Position numbers and translations under genes: made by a program. Shown one piece after another: positions 1 to 18,239 of a DNA stretch of 64,000 bases. The stretch is taken from NCBI GenBank assembly GCA_020853105.1, contig JADYZM010000025.1, forward strand, positions 1 to 64,000, written 5' to 3'. Source of the DNA: Flavobacteriales bacterium (GTDB taxonomy: Bacteria; Bacteroidota; Bacteroidia; Flavobacteriales_E; Vicingaceae). The notes below the pieces were generated by a model that saw nothing but the letters and a program-made list of their open reading frames with translations, was not told the DNA's origin and ran no database searches. Positions within the stretch are counted from its first letter, which is position 1. Each line of letters opens with the position of its first letter.

Positions 1-132
1 AACATCACCTATACGCAAGCAGGGGTTTCGTGCTTTGTAGGACAGAAAAGTGGTATATTTGAAGTTCAGTTCTTCGTAGGAAGTTCAGTGGTAAAAATCC
101 CTGCCTGCGTATAGCTGAGAACCGTTACAAGC
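1..132 (+). repeat. attC-like cassette site A (left end cut by window)
   Basis: An imperfect inverted repeat has a left arm at 9-24 (CTATACGCAAGCAGGG) and a right arm at 99-114 (CCCTGCCTGCGTATAG), pairing at 15 of 16 positions across a 74-bp spacer. It is followed by CCGTTACAAGC at 122-132. The GTT at 124-126 sits where an integron integrase would cut an attC site. GTTACAAGC is the exact reverse complement of GCTTGTAAC at 1500-1508, the start of the next repeat, which is the relation expected between the two ends of one cassette. The AAC at 1-3 may be the inner end of the left core site. The integron interpretation is inference. Confidence 0.6.
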
Positions 133-157
133 AAGTTTAACAAAAAACCAAAATAAC

Positions 158-415
158 ATGGGACAATTTGACAAAAACAGTAAAGAGTACATTGGCAACG
201 GACATTACAGAATTAACGACGTTGATTTTATGTCTGTATGGACATTCAAGAAGAAACACGGCATAGAACCAAATAACAATAACGCTAATGGAAGCGAAGG
301 ACAAGATTTAAATAAGTTGGGGTTTAATATTCATTCTTCAACTCCTGATTTTGGTGGATTTTCAACTATCTATATTTATCCTGTCGAAGAATTAGAGAAG
401 TATTATGGGGTATGA
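158..415 (+). CDS. Small hypothetical protein, first gene of cassette 1
   Basis: This 85-residue protein is not recognised. It has no signal peptide or membrane segment. It is polar and Asn/Gly-rich in the middle (residues 37-49) and ends in an alternating hydrophobic/aromatic stretch, FSTIYIYPVEELEKYYGV. The ATG lies about 33 bp inside the proposed cassette boundary at 124/125, a short leader of the kind seen in gene cassettes. The stop codon lies inside the next gene, which starts 11 bp before this one ends, so the two are probably translationally coupled and functionally linked. It could be a partner, inhibitor or antitoxin-like regulator of the downstream fusion enzyme, but nothing in the sequence proves this. 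Confidence 0.6.
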   Translation: MGQFDKNSKEYIGNGHYRINDVDFMSVWTFKKKHGIEPNNNNANGSEGQDLNKLGFNIHSSTPDFGGFSTIYIYPVEELEKYYGV

Positions 416-1490
416 CTCAAATAACGAAGAACTGCCTTTTGAATCTCAATATCGAAATCTCATAAAGGAACAAACCGAAATTGATTACCTAATCATTGGA
501 CAGGATCCATATCCAAGAAAGCCAAATGGAGATGAAGGTGGAAATGGAGTTGCGTTTTGTAAAAATTCCCATTATGAGTTTTTTCAAGAGAGTTGTTGCG
601 GGAATTACGTAACAACTTCATTGGGTTTGTCAAAAGACGTAATTAAAGCAGAGTACAAAAATCCGAAAGTACTATTCATGGATTTACTTTTGACAAAAGG
701 CATTTGCTTTATCAATGTAAGTACTAAACTGCTTTCAGAATTAAAGGAAACCGAATTAGAAAAAGTAATCTACGACTCAAAATCAAGCAATCTCGACGCG
801 TTACAGAAAGCAAAAAAAATCATTTTGCTTGGTAGAGGTAAAACTCAAAGCTATTTTAAAAAATACTACTCAGAATTCAAATTTGACCATGTGCTTTTAC
901 ACCCGTCAAAAAATGCAAAAGCGGACAATGAAAATGAATGGAATGAATTGTGGACAACAAACTATATCGAAAAAAACATTTTAAGTCAGGACAGTAATCA
1001 AAAAGGGGTTGGTTTAAACGTTGTTGGTAGGATTGACCTTTCAAAATTTGAAAAACCAAAAAAGGAAATCAAAAAAGACAAGGAAAACTTCTACATCATT
1101 GACACAAATGTTTTTGTAGATTATCCCGATATTATTTCTAGAATTGACAAGCAATATTCTATCGTTTTATCTGCGAAAGTAATAGACGAATTAGACTATT
1201 TGAAAACTTCATTGACAGAAGAACAAAAAAGAAATGTTCAAAAAGCTTTAAGACAAATAAACGAAAGCATAGACAAGCGAAATATCAGAATGGAAACAGC
1301 AGATTTGAGCTTGCTTCCAGACGATTTTAGTAAGAAATCTCCAGATAATTTTATTTTGTCGGTAGCGTTAAAATTCTTTGGAGAAAACCCAATTATGCTA
1401 ACATCTGACAACGGACTTCAAATTAAAGCCAAGGGTTTAGATATTACGACAATAACATTAAAGAACTTTTTGAAGCAAACGAAGTATTAA
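405..1490 (+). CDS. Uracil-DNA glycosylase-like / PIN nuclease fusion protein
   Basis: This 361-residue protein appears to join two nucleic-acid enzymes. Residues 15-200 resemble the uracil-DNA glycosylase fold: GQDPYP at 32-37, where the family water-activating Asp would be D34; then GNGVAFC at 46-52; and HPS at 166-168, matching the second catalytic motif. Proline in place of the usual His in GQDPYH recalls the poxvirus-type motif GIDPYP. Residues 228-361 resemble a PIN-domain RNase of the PhoH-associated type, with D233 (IIDTNVF), E262 (DELDYL), D314 and D335 (TSDNGL) supplying the acidic metal site. A lysine-rich linker at about 210-225 separates them. The gene overlaps the preceding small ORF by 11 bp and ends 10 bp before cassette repeat B. 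A defence or DNA-modification-sensing role is plausible inference; family assignment is from motifs only. Confidence 0.75.
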   Translation: MGYDSNNEELPFESQYRNLIKEQTEIDYLIIGQDPYPRKPNGDEGGNGVAFCKNSHYEFFQESCCGNYVTTSLGLSKDVIKAEYKNPKVLFMDLLLTKGICFINVSTKLLSELKETELEKVIYDSKSSNLDALQKAKKIILLGRGKTQSYFKKYYSEFKFDHVLLHPSKNAKADNENEWNELWTTNYIEKNILSQDSNQKGVGLNVVGRIDLSKFEKPKKEIKKDKENFYIIDTNVFVDYPDIISRIDKQYSIVLSAKVIDELDYLKTSLTEEQKRNVQKALRQINESIDKRNIRMETADLSLLPDDFSKKSPDNFILSVALKFFGENPIMLTSDNGLQIKAKGLDITTITLKNFLKQTKY

Positions 1491-1499
1491 TCAAAACCA

Positions 1500-1582
1500 G
1501 CTTGTAACAGGCGTTTAGCTCCATTTTTCTGCCGCAGGCGTAACACAGAAAAACGGCGCCAAGCGCCAAACCGTTATATGCT
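1500..1582 (+). repeat. attC-like cassette site B
   Basis: The arms at 1510-1531 and 1546-1567 pair at 18 of 22 positions. They are bounded by GCTTGTAAC (1500-1508) on the left and CCGTTATATGCT (1571-1582) on the right. The left boundary is the reverse complement of the start of cassette 1 (124-132). The right boundary, GTTATATGCT, is the exact reverse complement of 3002-3011, the start of the repeat closing the next cassette. Mismatched, folded-strand symmetry plus conserved AAC/GTT ends is the hallmark of attC sites. The predicted exchange point is 1573/1574. Confidence 0.7.
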
Positions 1583-1623
1583 ATGCTAAAAGACACGTCA
1601 CAAAAAAATAAACAATAACGACA

Positions 1624-2985
1624 ATGGGACTATTTGACTTTTTAAAGAAAAAAGAATTCGAGGAAATTGCTCAATTGAAATCTCAACTTGAACGGTATAA
1701 ATCTATCACGGACATAGAAGCTGAGTCAAAGAAACAACGAGAACAACTTGATAAACTTATTACCGACAAAGAATCGGAAATTAAAAGCATTCAAGACAAT
1801 TTAGTAAAGCTAAATTCAGACTATCAAGGTGCACTCGACACATACACAAGACTAAGAAAAGAAATCAGTTTATTTGAAAATAAACTAGACCTAATTGAGT
1901 ACGGTGTTTACGAACCAATATATGAGTTTGAAAAATCTGACGAATATCGACAAGAGCAAAACAGAATTATTGAGCTTCAAAAACAAATGATAAGTTCAGA
2001 GAGAGCAGCTATTTGTAGGACAAATTGGACTATTGACGGTAGTGAAGCAAAAGGACGAGCAAGCACAAAAAGATATATCAAGCTGACTCTACGAGCATTT
2101 AACGGAGAATGCGAATCACTAATTGCCAAAGTAAAATGGAACAATGTTAATCAAATGAAGGAACGTATAAAAAAATCATTTGAGACGATTAACAAAATTG
2201 GCGAAAGTCAAACGGTAACAATACAACCTGAGTATTTGGACTTGAAATTGAAAGAGCTAACATTAGAGTATGAATATCAATTAAAGAAACAGAAGGAAAA
2301 AGAAGAATTACGAGCTGCTCAAGAAGCATTACGTGAAGAAGAAAAAGCAAGACGTGAATTTGAACAAGCCCAAAAAGAAGCTGAAAAAGAAGAAGCTAAT
2401 TATCAAAAAGCATTGGACAAAGCACGTAAAGAGATGGAACAAGCTACAGGTGACAAACACGACAAACTTTTAGCTCAAATTCAAAAATTAGAACAAGAAT
2501 TACAAGAGGCACACGATAGAAAAGAACGTGCATTATCAATGGCTCAGCAGACTAAAAGAGGACATGTTTATATTATCTCAAACATTGGTTCTTTTGGTGA
2601 ACAAGTTTATAAAATTGGAATGACACGAAGACTTGAACCTGAAGACCGAATAAAAGAACTAGGAGACGCTTCAGTTCCTTTTCAGTTTGACATTCACGCA
2701 ATGATTTTTTCAGAAGACGCACCAAACTTGGAGAACGAACTACACAAAGCTTTTGCTAACAGGAAAGTAAATATGCTTAATTATAGGAAGGAATTTTTTA
2801 AAGTTACATTGGAAGAGATTGAACAAAAGGTTAAGGAAATCGGACTTGAAACAGAATTTATTAGGATACCAGAAGCAATGGAATACCGAGAGACAATTGC
2901 AATCTTGTCTAAACTAAATTCTACAGAACAACCAAAGACAATTGAACAAATTGTTGCAGACGAATTTCCGACTAGTTTGACATGA
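1624..2985 (+). CDS. DUF4041-like coiled-coil protein with T5orf172 GIY-YIG domain
   Basis: This 453-residue protein has three visible parts. A coiled coil covers about residues 8-95. A globular segment (about 96-215, containing YGVYEPIYEF and CRTNWTIDGSEAKGR) matches my knowledge of DUF4041. A second long charged coiled coil covers about 220-310. The C-terminus (about 314-410) looks like the GIY-YIG-related T5orf172/Mug113 domain: GHVYIISNIGSFGEQVYKIGM, then RIKELGDASVPFQFDIHA and a late conserved Glu/Asn helix. Such proteins occur in phages and mobile regions, and their biochemical role is not settled. The ATG lies 50 bp inside the cassette boundary at 1573/1574, and the stop is 16 bp before site C. 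It is the only gene in cassette 2. Confidence 0.75.
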   Translation: MGLFDFLKKKEFEEIAQLKSQLERYKSITDIEAESKKQREQLDKLITDKESEIKSIQDNLVKLNSDYQGALDTYTRLRKEISLFENKLDLIEYGVYEPIYEFEKSDEYRQEQNRIIELQKQMISSERAAICRTNWTIDGSEAKGRASTKRYIKLTLRAFNGECESLIAKVKWNNVNQMKERIKKSFETINKIGESQTVTIQPEYLDLKLKELTLEYEYQLKKQKEKEELRAAQEALREEEKARREFEQAQKEAEKEEANYQKALDKARKEMEQATGDKHDKLLAQIQKLEQELQEAHDRKERALSMAQQTKRGHVYIISNIGSFGEQVYKIGMTRRLEPEDRIKELGDASVPFQFDIHAMIFSEDAPNLENELHKAFANRKVNMLNYRKEFFKVTLEEIEQKVKEIGLETEFIRIPEAMEYRETIAILSKLNSTEQPKTIEQIVADEFPTSLT

Positions 2986-3001
2986 CAACAGAAAGTAGCA
3001 C

Positions 3002-3135
3002 AGCATATAACAGCCGTTTGGCGTCATGCGGGGTGACGTACTTACATTCAAGTTCAGTTTTCCAATTGGGCTTTTGTGGTAGGTTGACAGTTTTGTGCTC
3101 CGAAAACCCGCACGAACGCAAAGCCCGAAAACGTC
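3002..3135 (+). repeat. attC-like cassette site C (degenerate right arm)
   Basis: The site starts with AGCATATAAC (3002-3011), the exact reverse complement of the first ten bases of cassette 2 (1573-1582). The left arm at 3013-3034 (GCCGTTTGGCGTCATGCGGGGT) pairs only loosely with 3106-3130. It ends in GAAAACGTC rather than a clean GTTRRRY, so the outer core may be eroded. The loop contains AAGTTCAGTT (3050-3059), also present twice in part in site A. This appears to be the last cassette site of the array. With the relic transposase start below, it fills the non-coding interval 2986-3310. Confidence 0.55.
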
Positions 3136-3254
3136 AAACTGTCTAAAAACCCCTGATTATATTTAACACATTGAATGTTAATAACTTATGTGTTATTTTG
3201 TTTGTTATGTGTTTGATTATCAGTATATTTATATTGTAATTAAATGTACTGACT

Positions 3255-3314
3255 ATGAAGTTTATCAAAGGCAAAGACCGCAATCAAACCGCTTACTTTT
3301 TGTGGCTATCTTAA
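3255..3314 (+). pseudogene. Relic of IS1182-type transposase N-terminus
   Basis: A 19-codon ORF with an ATG at 3255 encodes [19 protein letters not shown] and then stops. MKFIKGKDRNQT closely resembles the conserved N-terminus of IS1182-family transposases of Bacteroidota. The similarity ends after about 12 residues at the 3' end of accD. No terminal inverted repeat or remaining transposase was found, so this would be a severely truncated remnant. The call rests on recall of the family consensus and a very short match. Confidence 0.35.
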
Positions 3315-4156
3315 TTGTTAAACATGTTGATGAGCTTAGAAATTGTAGATTTCAACTCGTTGCGTTTAACAATCAAGTCTAAAAAACCATGTTCAAGAAC
3401 AAATTCAGATGTTTGAAAATCTTCCGGTAAATCTCTACCAATGGTTTCTCTAACAACACGAGGTCCTGCGAATCCAATTAAAGCACCGGGTTCAGCGATA
3501 TTTAAATCACCAAGCATTGCAAAAGAAGCTGTAACACCACCTGTTGTTGGGTCAGTTAATAGGGAAATGTATGGAACTTTTGCCTTTGCCAATAAGGATA
3601 ATTTTACTGAAGTTTTTGCCATCTGCATTAGTGAAAATGCAGCCTCCATCATTCTTGCTCCACCGGATTTAGAAATCATTAAAAATGGTATTTTATTTTT
3701 GATAGAGTAGTCAATGGCTCTTGAAATTTTTTCACCAACTACTGAACCCATTGAACCTCCAATAAAATCAAAATCCATACAAGCTATAACTAAATCTTGT
3801 TTGTCAATTTTTCCAACTGCAGTGCGGACGGCATCTTTTAAATTGGTTTTCTTTTGTGTGGCTACTATTCTATCAGAATATTTTTTAGTGTCTTCAAAGT
3901 TTAACGGATTGCTTGAGGTCATTTTAGCGTCAAGTTCTTTGAATTTGTTGTTATCGAACAAAATGTTGAAGTATTCTTTTGAGCCTATTTTATCGTGATG
4001 TCCACACCCCGGGCATATATAAAATGAATTGGCATGTTCTTCGGTAGAAACCACGTTTTTACATTCTGAACATTTGTACCAAAGCCCTTCCGGTGTTTCT
4101 TTTTTTTCTGTAGTAGGAGTAATTACACCTTTTAATTTTCGTTGAAACCAAACCAT
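3311..4156 (-). CDS. accD: Acetyl-CoA carboxylase carboxyltransferase subunit beta
   Basis: This is the beta subunit of the carboxyltransferase that moves CO2 from biotin carrier protein to acetyl-CoA, giving malonyl-CoA for fatty-acid synthesis in the cytoplasm. The 281-residue length is normal. A four-cysteine zinc ribbon is intact at C29, C32, C48 and C51. The crotonase-like carboxyltransferase domain follows, with [11 protein letters not shown] and [11 protein letters not shown] (acyl-CoA and oxyanion site), then [14 protein letters not shown] and GFAGPRVV. It lies 41 bp downstream of fbaA on the same strand and is probably co-transcribed with it. The stop codon abuts the accessory region. 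Confidence 0.97.
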
Positions 4157-16130: not shown

Positions 16131-18239
16131 TTACATTTTCTTGTAGAATACGTTGTTGTCTGTGGTTAGTCGTATAAGATTTGAATTTTCTAAAGCTTCA
16201 ATTTTTTTATAGTTAAACGGTATTAAGATTTCATTTTTACTGTTGATTAAACCAAATAAACCATCTTTTTTTGCTAAGTAAATATTATTTGTAAATAAAG
16301 AAAGTTCCGAATATCCGGCAGGAACAATAAAAACACCTTTATCATCAATGATTCCAAATAAATTGTTTGAAGATACTATTGCTTGTCCGTTAATAAATTC
16401 ATTACTTTCATCAAAATTATATGGAATAACCAGCTTTGCCTGATAATCACAATACCCCCACTTTCCTTTACGTTTTACAGCAATTAATTTCTTTGATACA
16501 GTTGCAATATCTTCAAAAATAGCAGGTAAAAATTCTTTACCTAAAGAATCAATTAAGCCAATTTTACCTTTACTTTGAAAGCGAGCAAATCCCTTAGTGT
16601 TAAACATGGCTAAATTATTCATACCTACTGAAAACACTTGTGAAAATGGTATTGTAAGTTTAGAATCTTGGTTCAAATATCCATAAAGACTGTCTTTTAC
16701 AATCATTGCTCGGTTGTTTTCCAATCCGGTGATGAAATTATAGATAGGTTCGAGAATATATTTACCTGTTTTATCAATAACTCCGTATTTTCCATTTTCC
16801 ATGATACGAATAAAATTTTGGTTGCTAAGATCTATCCAATCAAAGGTTGGTTTCACCACGTACATCAGGTTGGTGTCTATTATACCGTATTTTCCTTCTT
16901 TTTCTACATAAGTAATATTTTCTACAAAATCACCAGCACTTTCAAATTCAAAACCCACTTTTAGATTTCCCAGTCTGTCAATAAAACCATATTTTTCGTT
17001 CAATTCAACAGAAATTAAATTGCTTTTTGTATCGCCAATTTCATCGTAAATAGTAGGTACAAGTTCTTCACCAGTTCGATTTATGATGCCGTATTTTTGA
17101 TTTTCACTCACCACAGCCATACCGTTGTTGAAATTTTCAGCCTCATCAAATTCTATTGGAATTACAATTTCACCGGATTTATTAATGTACCCGTATTTGT
17201 TATTTTGAGAAACTGCTGCAACGCCTTCTGAAAAATCCATTACACCTTCATAAACAGTTGGTATAACAATTTGTAAACTATCATTAATAAAACCCCACAA
17301 TCCGTCTTTTTGAAATGTATAATATGTTGTGTTAGCCAATTTAAAATCTTCTTGAAGTTCATTTTTAAAGGGATAGTTTGGGTATTTTAAGATAAACTTT
17401 TCAATATTTTCGGAAGTTTGAACTAAAGTAGAAAGGTGATACAACATTCTCCAAGCTTGTGTAACAAATGGATTGTTAGGGTGGGTATGGATAAAATTTT
17501 CGTAAGTAGGAATGTTTTTTTGATGAGTTACAATGTCGTATATATTTTTGTGTGCTTTATTAATAAATGGATTTGAGGGATAATCAGCAATAAATTTTAG
17601 GTTATTTTCAACGGTGTTTATTTCTGTATATTCTTCAAACAATTTTTTTTCATAGATTGTTTTACACGCTGAATATTCGTCTGCTTCTGGATAGTTTGTT
17701 AAAAAATTGAGGTATGACTTTGATGTATTTTCTTGTTTTGCAAGTGTGAATGCAAGAGCATTTCTAAGTTCTACAGCTTTTTGCTGTTGTTTAGCAAATT
17801 TATTTTGTTCAATAAAATAATTATAAGATTCGATAGTGTTGGCTTCTAATGCTTTTTGGAAGCATTTTTCATCAATAAATTGGTGGTGCACATAGAGCAT
17901 TACAGAATCAATTTTATAATTGTTCCACTTTTTAACTGATGCAGCAGTTATTTTTTCTTGGAGTTTGAGAGTCAAATTTTTATAAGCATTCTGGCTTTGA
18001 TTGATATAAAACAGAGCAGAATCAAGGTTGTAAAAAGGATTATTATTTAATGAATAAATCAAACTCAAGCCGTAGGCAGATTCTGTAGTTTGTTTTTTCA
18101 AGCCTTTTTCGAAAATCTTTTTGGCTTTAAAATAGTCATGAATAGATAATGCCTCAAATGCTTTGGTTAAGTTTGCAGCTTCTAACCCATTAACAAGTAG
18201 AATAACAAGCAAAACAATAATTTTTTTACTATAAAACAT
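16131..18239 (-). CDS. WG-repeat protein with N-terminal TPR-like region
   Basis: From the ATG at 18239 this is a 702-residue exported protein with a signal peptide (about 1-22, ending near LEAA). An alpha-helical TPR-like half (about 25-330) is followed by about ten WG repeats of roughly 45 residues each. Each repeat carries a version of KYGFIDRLGN or KYGIIN followed by xxVIPxxYDE. WG repeats form beta-rich surfaces seen in many Bacteroidota secreted proteins; their partners are generally unknown. The frame opens at 18317, but that would overlap the divergent mltF start and add 26 residues before the signal peptide. Confidence 0.85.
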   Translation of the reverse strand: MFYSKKIIVLLVILLVNGLEAANLTKAFEALSIHDYFKAKKIFEKGLKKQTTESAYGLSLIYSLNNNPFYNLDSALFYINQSQNAYKNLTLKLQEKITAASVKKWNNYKIDSVMLYVHHQFIDEKCFQKALEANTIESYNYFIEQNKFAKQQQKAVELRNALAFTLAKQENTSKSYLNFLTNYPEADEYSACKTIYEKKLFEEYTEINTVENNLKFIADYPSNPFINKAHKNIYDIVTHQKNIPTYENFIHTHPNNPFVTQAWRMLYHLSTLVQTSENIEKFILKYPNYPFKNELQEDFKLANTTYYTFQKDGLWGFINDSLQIVIPTVYEGVMDFSEGVAAVSQNNKYGYINKSGEIVIPIEFDEAENFNNGMAVVSENQKYGIINRTGEELVPTIYDEIGDTKSNLISVELNEKYGFIDRLGNLKVGFEFESAGDFVENITYVEKEGKYGIIDTNLMYVVKPTFDWIDLSNQNFIRIMENGKYGVIDKTGKYILEPIYNFITGLENNRAMIVKDSLYGYLNQDSKLTIPFSQVFSVGMNNLAMFNTKGFARFQSKGKIGLIDSLGKEFLPAIFEDIATVSKKLIAVKRKGKWGYCDYQAKLVIPYNFDESNEFINGQAIVSSNNLFGIIDDKGVFIVPAGYSELSLFTNNIYLAKKDGLFGLINSKNEILIPFNYKKIEALENSNLIRLTTDNNVFYKKM

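Follow-up and report, generated by a model that had tools for sequence, protein, structure and literature searches.

The window analysed here comprises 64,000 nucleotides (G000:C25:1-64000) from the first base of contig C25 (JADYZM010000025.1, forward strand) of a Flavobacteriales bacterium, G000 (GCA_020853105.1), with a genome of 2.87 Mb. It opens with three attC-like sites, which flank the two final cassettes of an array that continues beyond the contig start. The best explanation, to which we assign a probability of a little under nine in ten, is that this is the distal end of an integron-type array and that a dedicated tyrosine recombinase other than IntI drives the capture of its cassettes. 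The evidence, all of it comparative and taken from sequences, consists of the arrays themselves with their covarying stems, the matching of cassette ends, the linkage of recombinase, attI-like site and array, base-exact attI junctions, cassette-precise exchange and a recent duplicate. In the proposed mechanism, each cassette would be made up of one or a few genes with an attC-like site at the 3' end. A recombinase of about 380 amino acids, with an extra N-terminal domain and without the IntI-specific insertion, would have its gene upstream of the array head, in the same strand orientation and about 40-115 bp before an attI-like site. This recombinase would insert circular cassettes at attI or attC sites by crossover at C-G/TT (a slash marks the junction throughout), and insertion would shift the older cassettes down the array and create the matching ends of each cassette.

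A covariance model, R1, was built from an alignment (A1) of 12 sites of the same genome, namely site 3 of the window and 11 others, with window sites 1 and 2 held out. The stem in this alignment has 13 pairs with compensatory changes, and neither any of 500 column shuffles nor any slid register reached its covariation score. R1 detected 48 sites in the own genome, including the held-out sites 1 and 2, and sites were also detected in 38 of 41 genomes (the own genome and its relatives) and in 131 of 296 Bacteroidota genomes. The other end of contig C25 is also a site (147851-147984), and many other contigs of this genome start or stop in or near a site, as would be expected if the repeats break the assembly. 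The folded site has an outer arm of about 15 bp with a constant mismatch, followed usually by an A opposite about 4 unpaired nucleotides and then by an inner stem. The features of an attC hairpin are present (paired R and L arms, an unpaired central spacer and mismatched bases), and this structure suggests that recombination would proceed via a folded single strand. A C was found directly before GTT in 111 of 111 sites; on the other strand this is a G after AAC, which is also conserved in classical attC (PMC2727003). The classical core consensus is RYYYAAC/GTTRRRY (PMC12901181), and only 6% of 114 right cores agree with GTTRRRY. Two 100%-identical IS110-like elements were read by eye at attC-like sites of G213 (L277, reverse complement; 1184-1320 and 16299-16436) and are reminiscent of the IS1111-attC elements of classical integrons, and an annotated IS110 transposase lies inside the array on a Chryseobacterium plasmid (L298). 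One site pair with the same left flank and differing stems was discarded as an IS110-like insertion, likewise read by eye.

The matching of cassette ends was assessed in 83 pairs of consecutive sites, no more than 9 kb apart, from the own genome and several others, comparing the sequence after GTT at the cassette start with the reverse complement of the end of the same cassette. At positions 5-9, the five variable core positions, agreement was 84-90% as against 27-56% in mismatched pairs, and at positions 12-14 it was 64-83% as against 26-36%. Only 5% agreed at position 11; there the cassette start has A, and the reverse-complemented end mostly has G. Every cassette is therefore bounded by imperfect inverted ends of about 15 bp that are specific to it. 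Both window cassettes have about 13 of 15 matching end bases and the constant mismatch at position 11 (for cassette 1, GTTACAAGCAAGTTT at the start and GTTACAAGCTGGTTT as the reverse complement of the end). A rule of this kind had been proposed for the two window cassettes in a first-pass annotation of the stretch; it held over the 83 pairs and reaches further than the match described there. The longest open reading frame (ORF) was in the array direction in 64 of 69 cassettes.

The best matches below the cut-off of the IntI profile TIGR02249, in the own genome and its relatives, were tyrosine recombinases of about 380 amino acids, and the candidate integrase of the own genome lies on contig C88 (10431-11576). 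Where the fetched flank of a recombinase locus contained R1 sites, they were downstream on the same strand in 15 of 16 cases; zero R1 sites were found at six Xer control loci (about 100 kb), and at many other recombinase loci the contig broke off within the next 1.5 kb downstream. A profile (A3) built from 28 family members separates the family (mostly 400-538 bits at full length) from Xer (at most 206 bits). Among the 296 phylum genomes, sites were present in 75 of 94 with the recombinase as against 56 of 202 without it (Fisher p=2e-17, not corrected for relatedness). Of 42 sites that share a contig with a recombinase and lie no more than 100 kb from it, 37 were downstream and co-directional, several of them in closed genomes; in the closed genome G213, 18 sites, all on one strand, extend over about 33 kb downstream of the recombinase gene. 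In a separate collection, 32 of 34 sites around 80 homologues were downstream and co-directional, in Bacteroidota, with Algoriphagus ornithinivorans, Flavobacterium aciduliphilum, Winogradskyella ursingii and Zunongwangia mangrovi among the named isolates. The reaction would be catalysed by this recombinase family, and the earlier suspicion of an undescribed recombinase is supported; a distinct family of tyrosine recombinases heads such arrays in many related genomes. The recombinases at L150:10776 and L177 were excluded, since the downstream DNA appears to read like an IS91-type transposase.

An attI-like junction was found about 40-115 bp behind the recombinase stop codon. It commonly reads ...TATAAACAA/GTT, and in another recombinase subgroup it consists of a palindrome and then GTT. 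In G000, G013 and G022 the attI flank is shared up to GTT, and three different first cassettes follow from G/TT on. The end-match of a first cassette was seen at 10 of 57 GTTR positions behind recombinases as against 12 of 1510 control GTTR positions. Two Chryseobacterium plasmids have attI in common and diverge at GTT, one of them with six R1 sites downstream. These plasmids, NZ_CP041688.1 and NZ_CP094530.1 (L298, L299), carry the recombinase and attI with different cassettes and look like mobile versions. The cassettes common to G013 and G022 have an exact start at GTTA and an exact end at TAAC, and none of 47 related site pairs was alike on both neighbouring sides. In G645, a cassette of about 390 bp and its 3' stem occur twice with 100% identity, once inside the array and once behind an attI-like ATATAAACAA/GTT; this duplicate is a classical cassette unit, TT...ORF...stem...G. 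This recent copy shows the stem moving with its cassette, contrary to what older shared cassettes had at first suggested. The likeness of stems was 0.67 for the preceding cassette as against 0.58 for the following one (p=0.016, with pairs that are not independent). The attI-like sequence with the fresh copy in G645 is located at about 14579 of L288 (G645:C54:524579) and was also read as GTCTGACGAAGTCAGACATATAAACAA/GTT.

Several observations weigh against an integron-type array with a dedicated recombinase. In the phylum survey, besides the 56 genomes having sites and no recombinase over threshold, 19 showed the reverse, and five sites were upstream of and opposite to the recombinase (G435, G058, G559). 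The recombinases of these three genomes are lower-scoring family members, possibly a subgroup with a placement like that of intI in classical integrons. The attI-like site of the G645 duplicate has no recombinase gene in the fetched flank. Older shared cassettes often have a different downstream stem, which is not predicted by a simple model of cassettes carrying their stems unless stems are replaced later; the stems of these older cassettes may have been replaced or exchanged. Comparison of the folding energy of the two strands gave p=0.054, favouring neither clearly. In the own genome, the contig with the recombinase (C88) is separate from the one with the window array (C25), and 1714 bp of C88 (L045 9980-11693), holding the recombinase, attI and two tRNA genes, are 100% identical to a stretch from another genus (G013:C18, L158 8924-10637), possibly due to recent transfer, a chimera or misbinning of C88. 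We infer that the C88 recombinase serves the window array; the family-wide evidence is independent of the placement of C88.

The 56 site-bearing genomes without a family member at the threshold used, and the arrays on contigs without the family gene, could also be explained if the arrays are of the integron type and the co-located recombinase is only partly responsible, with help from a second, unrecognised recombinase such as the host Xer. We consider this unlikely, as the first-cassette junctions lie directly behind the family gene and the Xer loci are without sites, and as gene-less arrays are known in classical integrons too, as clusters of attC sites lacking an integrase (CALIN).

No IntI over the TIGR02249 cut-off was found in the 41 Bacteroidota genomes (the own genome and 40 relatives), whereas the same search as a control gave IntI over the cut-off in 6 of 12 other genomes. 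The family scored 188-212 bits against a cut-off of 265, and the match fell into two pieces separated by about 50 unmatched profile positions. When a family member was aligned to VchIntIA (2A3V), 17 residues were found in place of 60 between two conserved blocks, so the IntI-specific region is missing from the family. In a tree with 7 IntI and 28 family members, IntI, Xer and the new family formed separate groups (100/99, 97/88 and 82/87, respectively; root unknown). Four family members scored 224, 227, 233 and 219 bits with NF040815 (curated cut-off 220), a wider XerA model whose NCBI name is 'site-specific tyrosine recombinase/integron integrase'. An AlphaFold model of the recombinase (predicted local distance difference test, pLDDT, 85.8) has an extra N-terminal alpha/beta domain, and its best PDB match is VchIntIA. 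The recombinase belongs to the XerA/IntI superfamily and is, by these comparisons, not an IntI. A classical IntI integron with its integrase outside the assembly, or a CALIN on which an ordinary IntI acts in trans, would have the same logic of cassettes, attC-like hairpins and attI, and the fold match to VchIntIA would suit it. It is nevertheless very improbable given the negative IntI search with its positive control elsewhere, the 6% of right cores that fit GTTRRRY, and a co-located recombinase that belongs to another clade.

Even less credit is given to the idea that the units are small transposons with imperfect terminal inverted repeats of 15 bp, moved by a transposase in trans, and that the stems are mere spacers. 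Matched ends with arms like terminal inverted repeats, and stems that differ in several shared cassettes, would be in keeping with it. However, the ends vary between cassettes and yet match within one, the orientation is fixed, the stems are conserved with compensatory changes, a tyrosine recombinase stands at the array head with base-exact attI junctions, and in the recent G645 copy the stem travels with the ORF. The possibility that bidirectional terminators or other RNA hairpins between genes make up the sites, with a recombinase nearby by coincidence, can practically be dismissed: the sites are strong hairpins at gene ends, but terminators do not predict sequence matching across an intervening gene, breakpoints at sites or a same-strand place downstream of one recombinase family, and both the end-matching and the junctions contradict this reading.

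The features of the window are listed in the table. Because the window starts at the first base of C25, the array is cut there and site 1 is incomplete, which bears out the 'array edge' considered in the first-pass annotation. The strings given there for the cassette ends were found at their positions (GTTACAAGC at 124-132 and GCTTGTAAC at 1500-1508; GTTATATGCT at 1573-1582 and AGCATATAAC at 3002-3011), as were three repeats bounding two cassettes; the extent of site 3 was corrected, as it ends at about 3136-3141, with GTCA (3133-3136) instead of GTTA as right core. The interpretation as attC-type cassettes gained support from the recovery of held-out sites 1 and 2 by R1, the covarying stems and the end-matching. 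The absence of an integrase is correct for the window and not for the assembly, which has the candidate on C88. Of the genome searches suggested at that stage, the one for further copies of the repeats yielded the 48 R1 sites, and the one for an IntI-type recombinase gave none over the TIGR02249 cut-off. Neither window cassette showed precise gain or loss in 395 genomes of the class, which contained only homologues of 67-81% identity in 9 other genomes, one of them beside an R1 site; the precise junctions were found at other cassettes instead. No Rfam family matched the window sites.

Features at the start of the window (positions in contig C25)
Feature	Position	Strand	Remarks
attC-like site 1	1..132	+	5' end lost at contig start and hit flagged as truncated there; R1 81.2 bits; G124/T125 as expected crossover
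Cassette 1 (integron convention)	125..1573	+	TTACAAGC... ORFs ...GCTTGTAAC, stem, G
85-aa ORF	158..415	+	cassette 1; no family matched
361-aa protein, C-terminal PIN_4 domain	405..1490	+	cassette 1; Pfam PF13638, E=4.8e-21
attC-like site 2	1499..1581	+	short loop; R'' 1500-1508, R' 1573-1582; R1 46.8 bits, outside training set
Cassette 2	1574..3133	+	ends GTTATATGCTATGCT and, as reverse complement of end, GTTATATGCTGTGCT
PD-Lambda-1 anti-phage defence homologue, 453 aa	1624..2985	+	cassette 2; DUF4041 + MUG113/T5orf172
attC-like site 3, last of array	3002..3141	+	R1 106.8 bits, part of training set
accD-like gene	3311..4156	-	chromosomal backbone beyond site 3

The 361-aa protein may carry an N-terminal motif like that of uracil-DNA glycosylases (GQDPYP, read by eye). 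The 453-aa protein matched PADLOC model PDLC03977 over its full length (E=8.8e-189; residues 11-450 on model positions 32-494 of 496) and has the Pfam domains PF13250, PF13455 and PF10544. Other cargo of arrays in the own genome includes a Shedu-like defence gene, a PDC-S54 candidate, a rhodanese, a predicted permease, and genes for lanthipeptide synthesis and export; one cassette interval of about 12 kb (L146 1721-13007) holds a lanthipeptide-type cluster with a dehydratase and a C39-peptidase ABC transporter. The sequence GTCAAACTGTCTAAAAAC (window 3133-3150) is also found at the end of the array on C9 (L047, about 5580) and is thus common to two arrays. GTCA replaces GTTA at presumed array-terminal sites, and GTCAGGTTGTG is common to C31 and one site in G001:C10.

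An earlier description of this system was not found in open-access full texts, preprints and most subscription journals being outside the search. Hardly any integrons are reported from Bacteroidetes by surveys that use IntI and classical attC models, whereas 131 of 296 sampled genomes have sites here; the system would add a large unsurveyed platform of gene exchange, with defence genes, a lanthipeptide cluster and a predicted permease as cargo, and present also on Chryseobacterium plasmids. We incline to the view that it represents a separate integron lineage that is common in Bacteroidota and whose recombinase lacks the IntI-specific insertion (the I2 helix region) and recombines folded cassette sites. 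The shift of integrases from double- to single-strand recombination is attributed to the gain of the I2 helix (PMC7790495), and a family without this region contrasts with that view of integrase evolution. If our view is true, the I2 helix would not be required for integron-type cassette capture, and the trait would have arisen twice or would predate the IntI-specific insertion.

Compared with known integrons (the V. cholerae superintegron and class 1), the system is alike in having a tyrosine recombinase gene with an adjacent attI, ORFs mostly in one direction, imperfect hairpins with an unpaired central spacer, a G/TT crossover, matching ends, the site 3' of the ORF, insertions of the IS110 family at sites, and defence cargo. 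It differs in that the recombinase is without the IntI-specific insertion and outside the IntI clade, and is usually co-directional with the array (37/42), whereas the IntI gene is usually, though not universally, divergent from it. In place of the GTTRRRY core, the right core is GTTANNNNC; the outer arms are paired over about 15 bp with a constant mismatch, the central spacer typically has an A on one side and about 4 nucleotides on the other, and the last site often has GTCA. Recombinases of the XerA/XerH type (NF040815) have the same catalytic domains as the family, whose members score 219-233 bits against the cut-off of 220, but the family differs by an N-terminal domain of about 80-100 residues, an IntI-like C-terminal SPLDxL motif, its linkage to attI and cassette arrays, and its separation from Xer on the tree. 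Taken alone, the window fragment resembles a CALIN, but its sites differ from classical attC in sequence type, and a candidate recombinase is present in the genome. The one complete integron that IntegronFinder 2.0 reports in Bacteroidetes, that of Salinibacter ruber (PMC9024848), is from the same phylum and was found with IntI and classical attC models; in contrast, the arrays described here go with no IntI over the family cut-off and no matching Rfam family.

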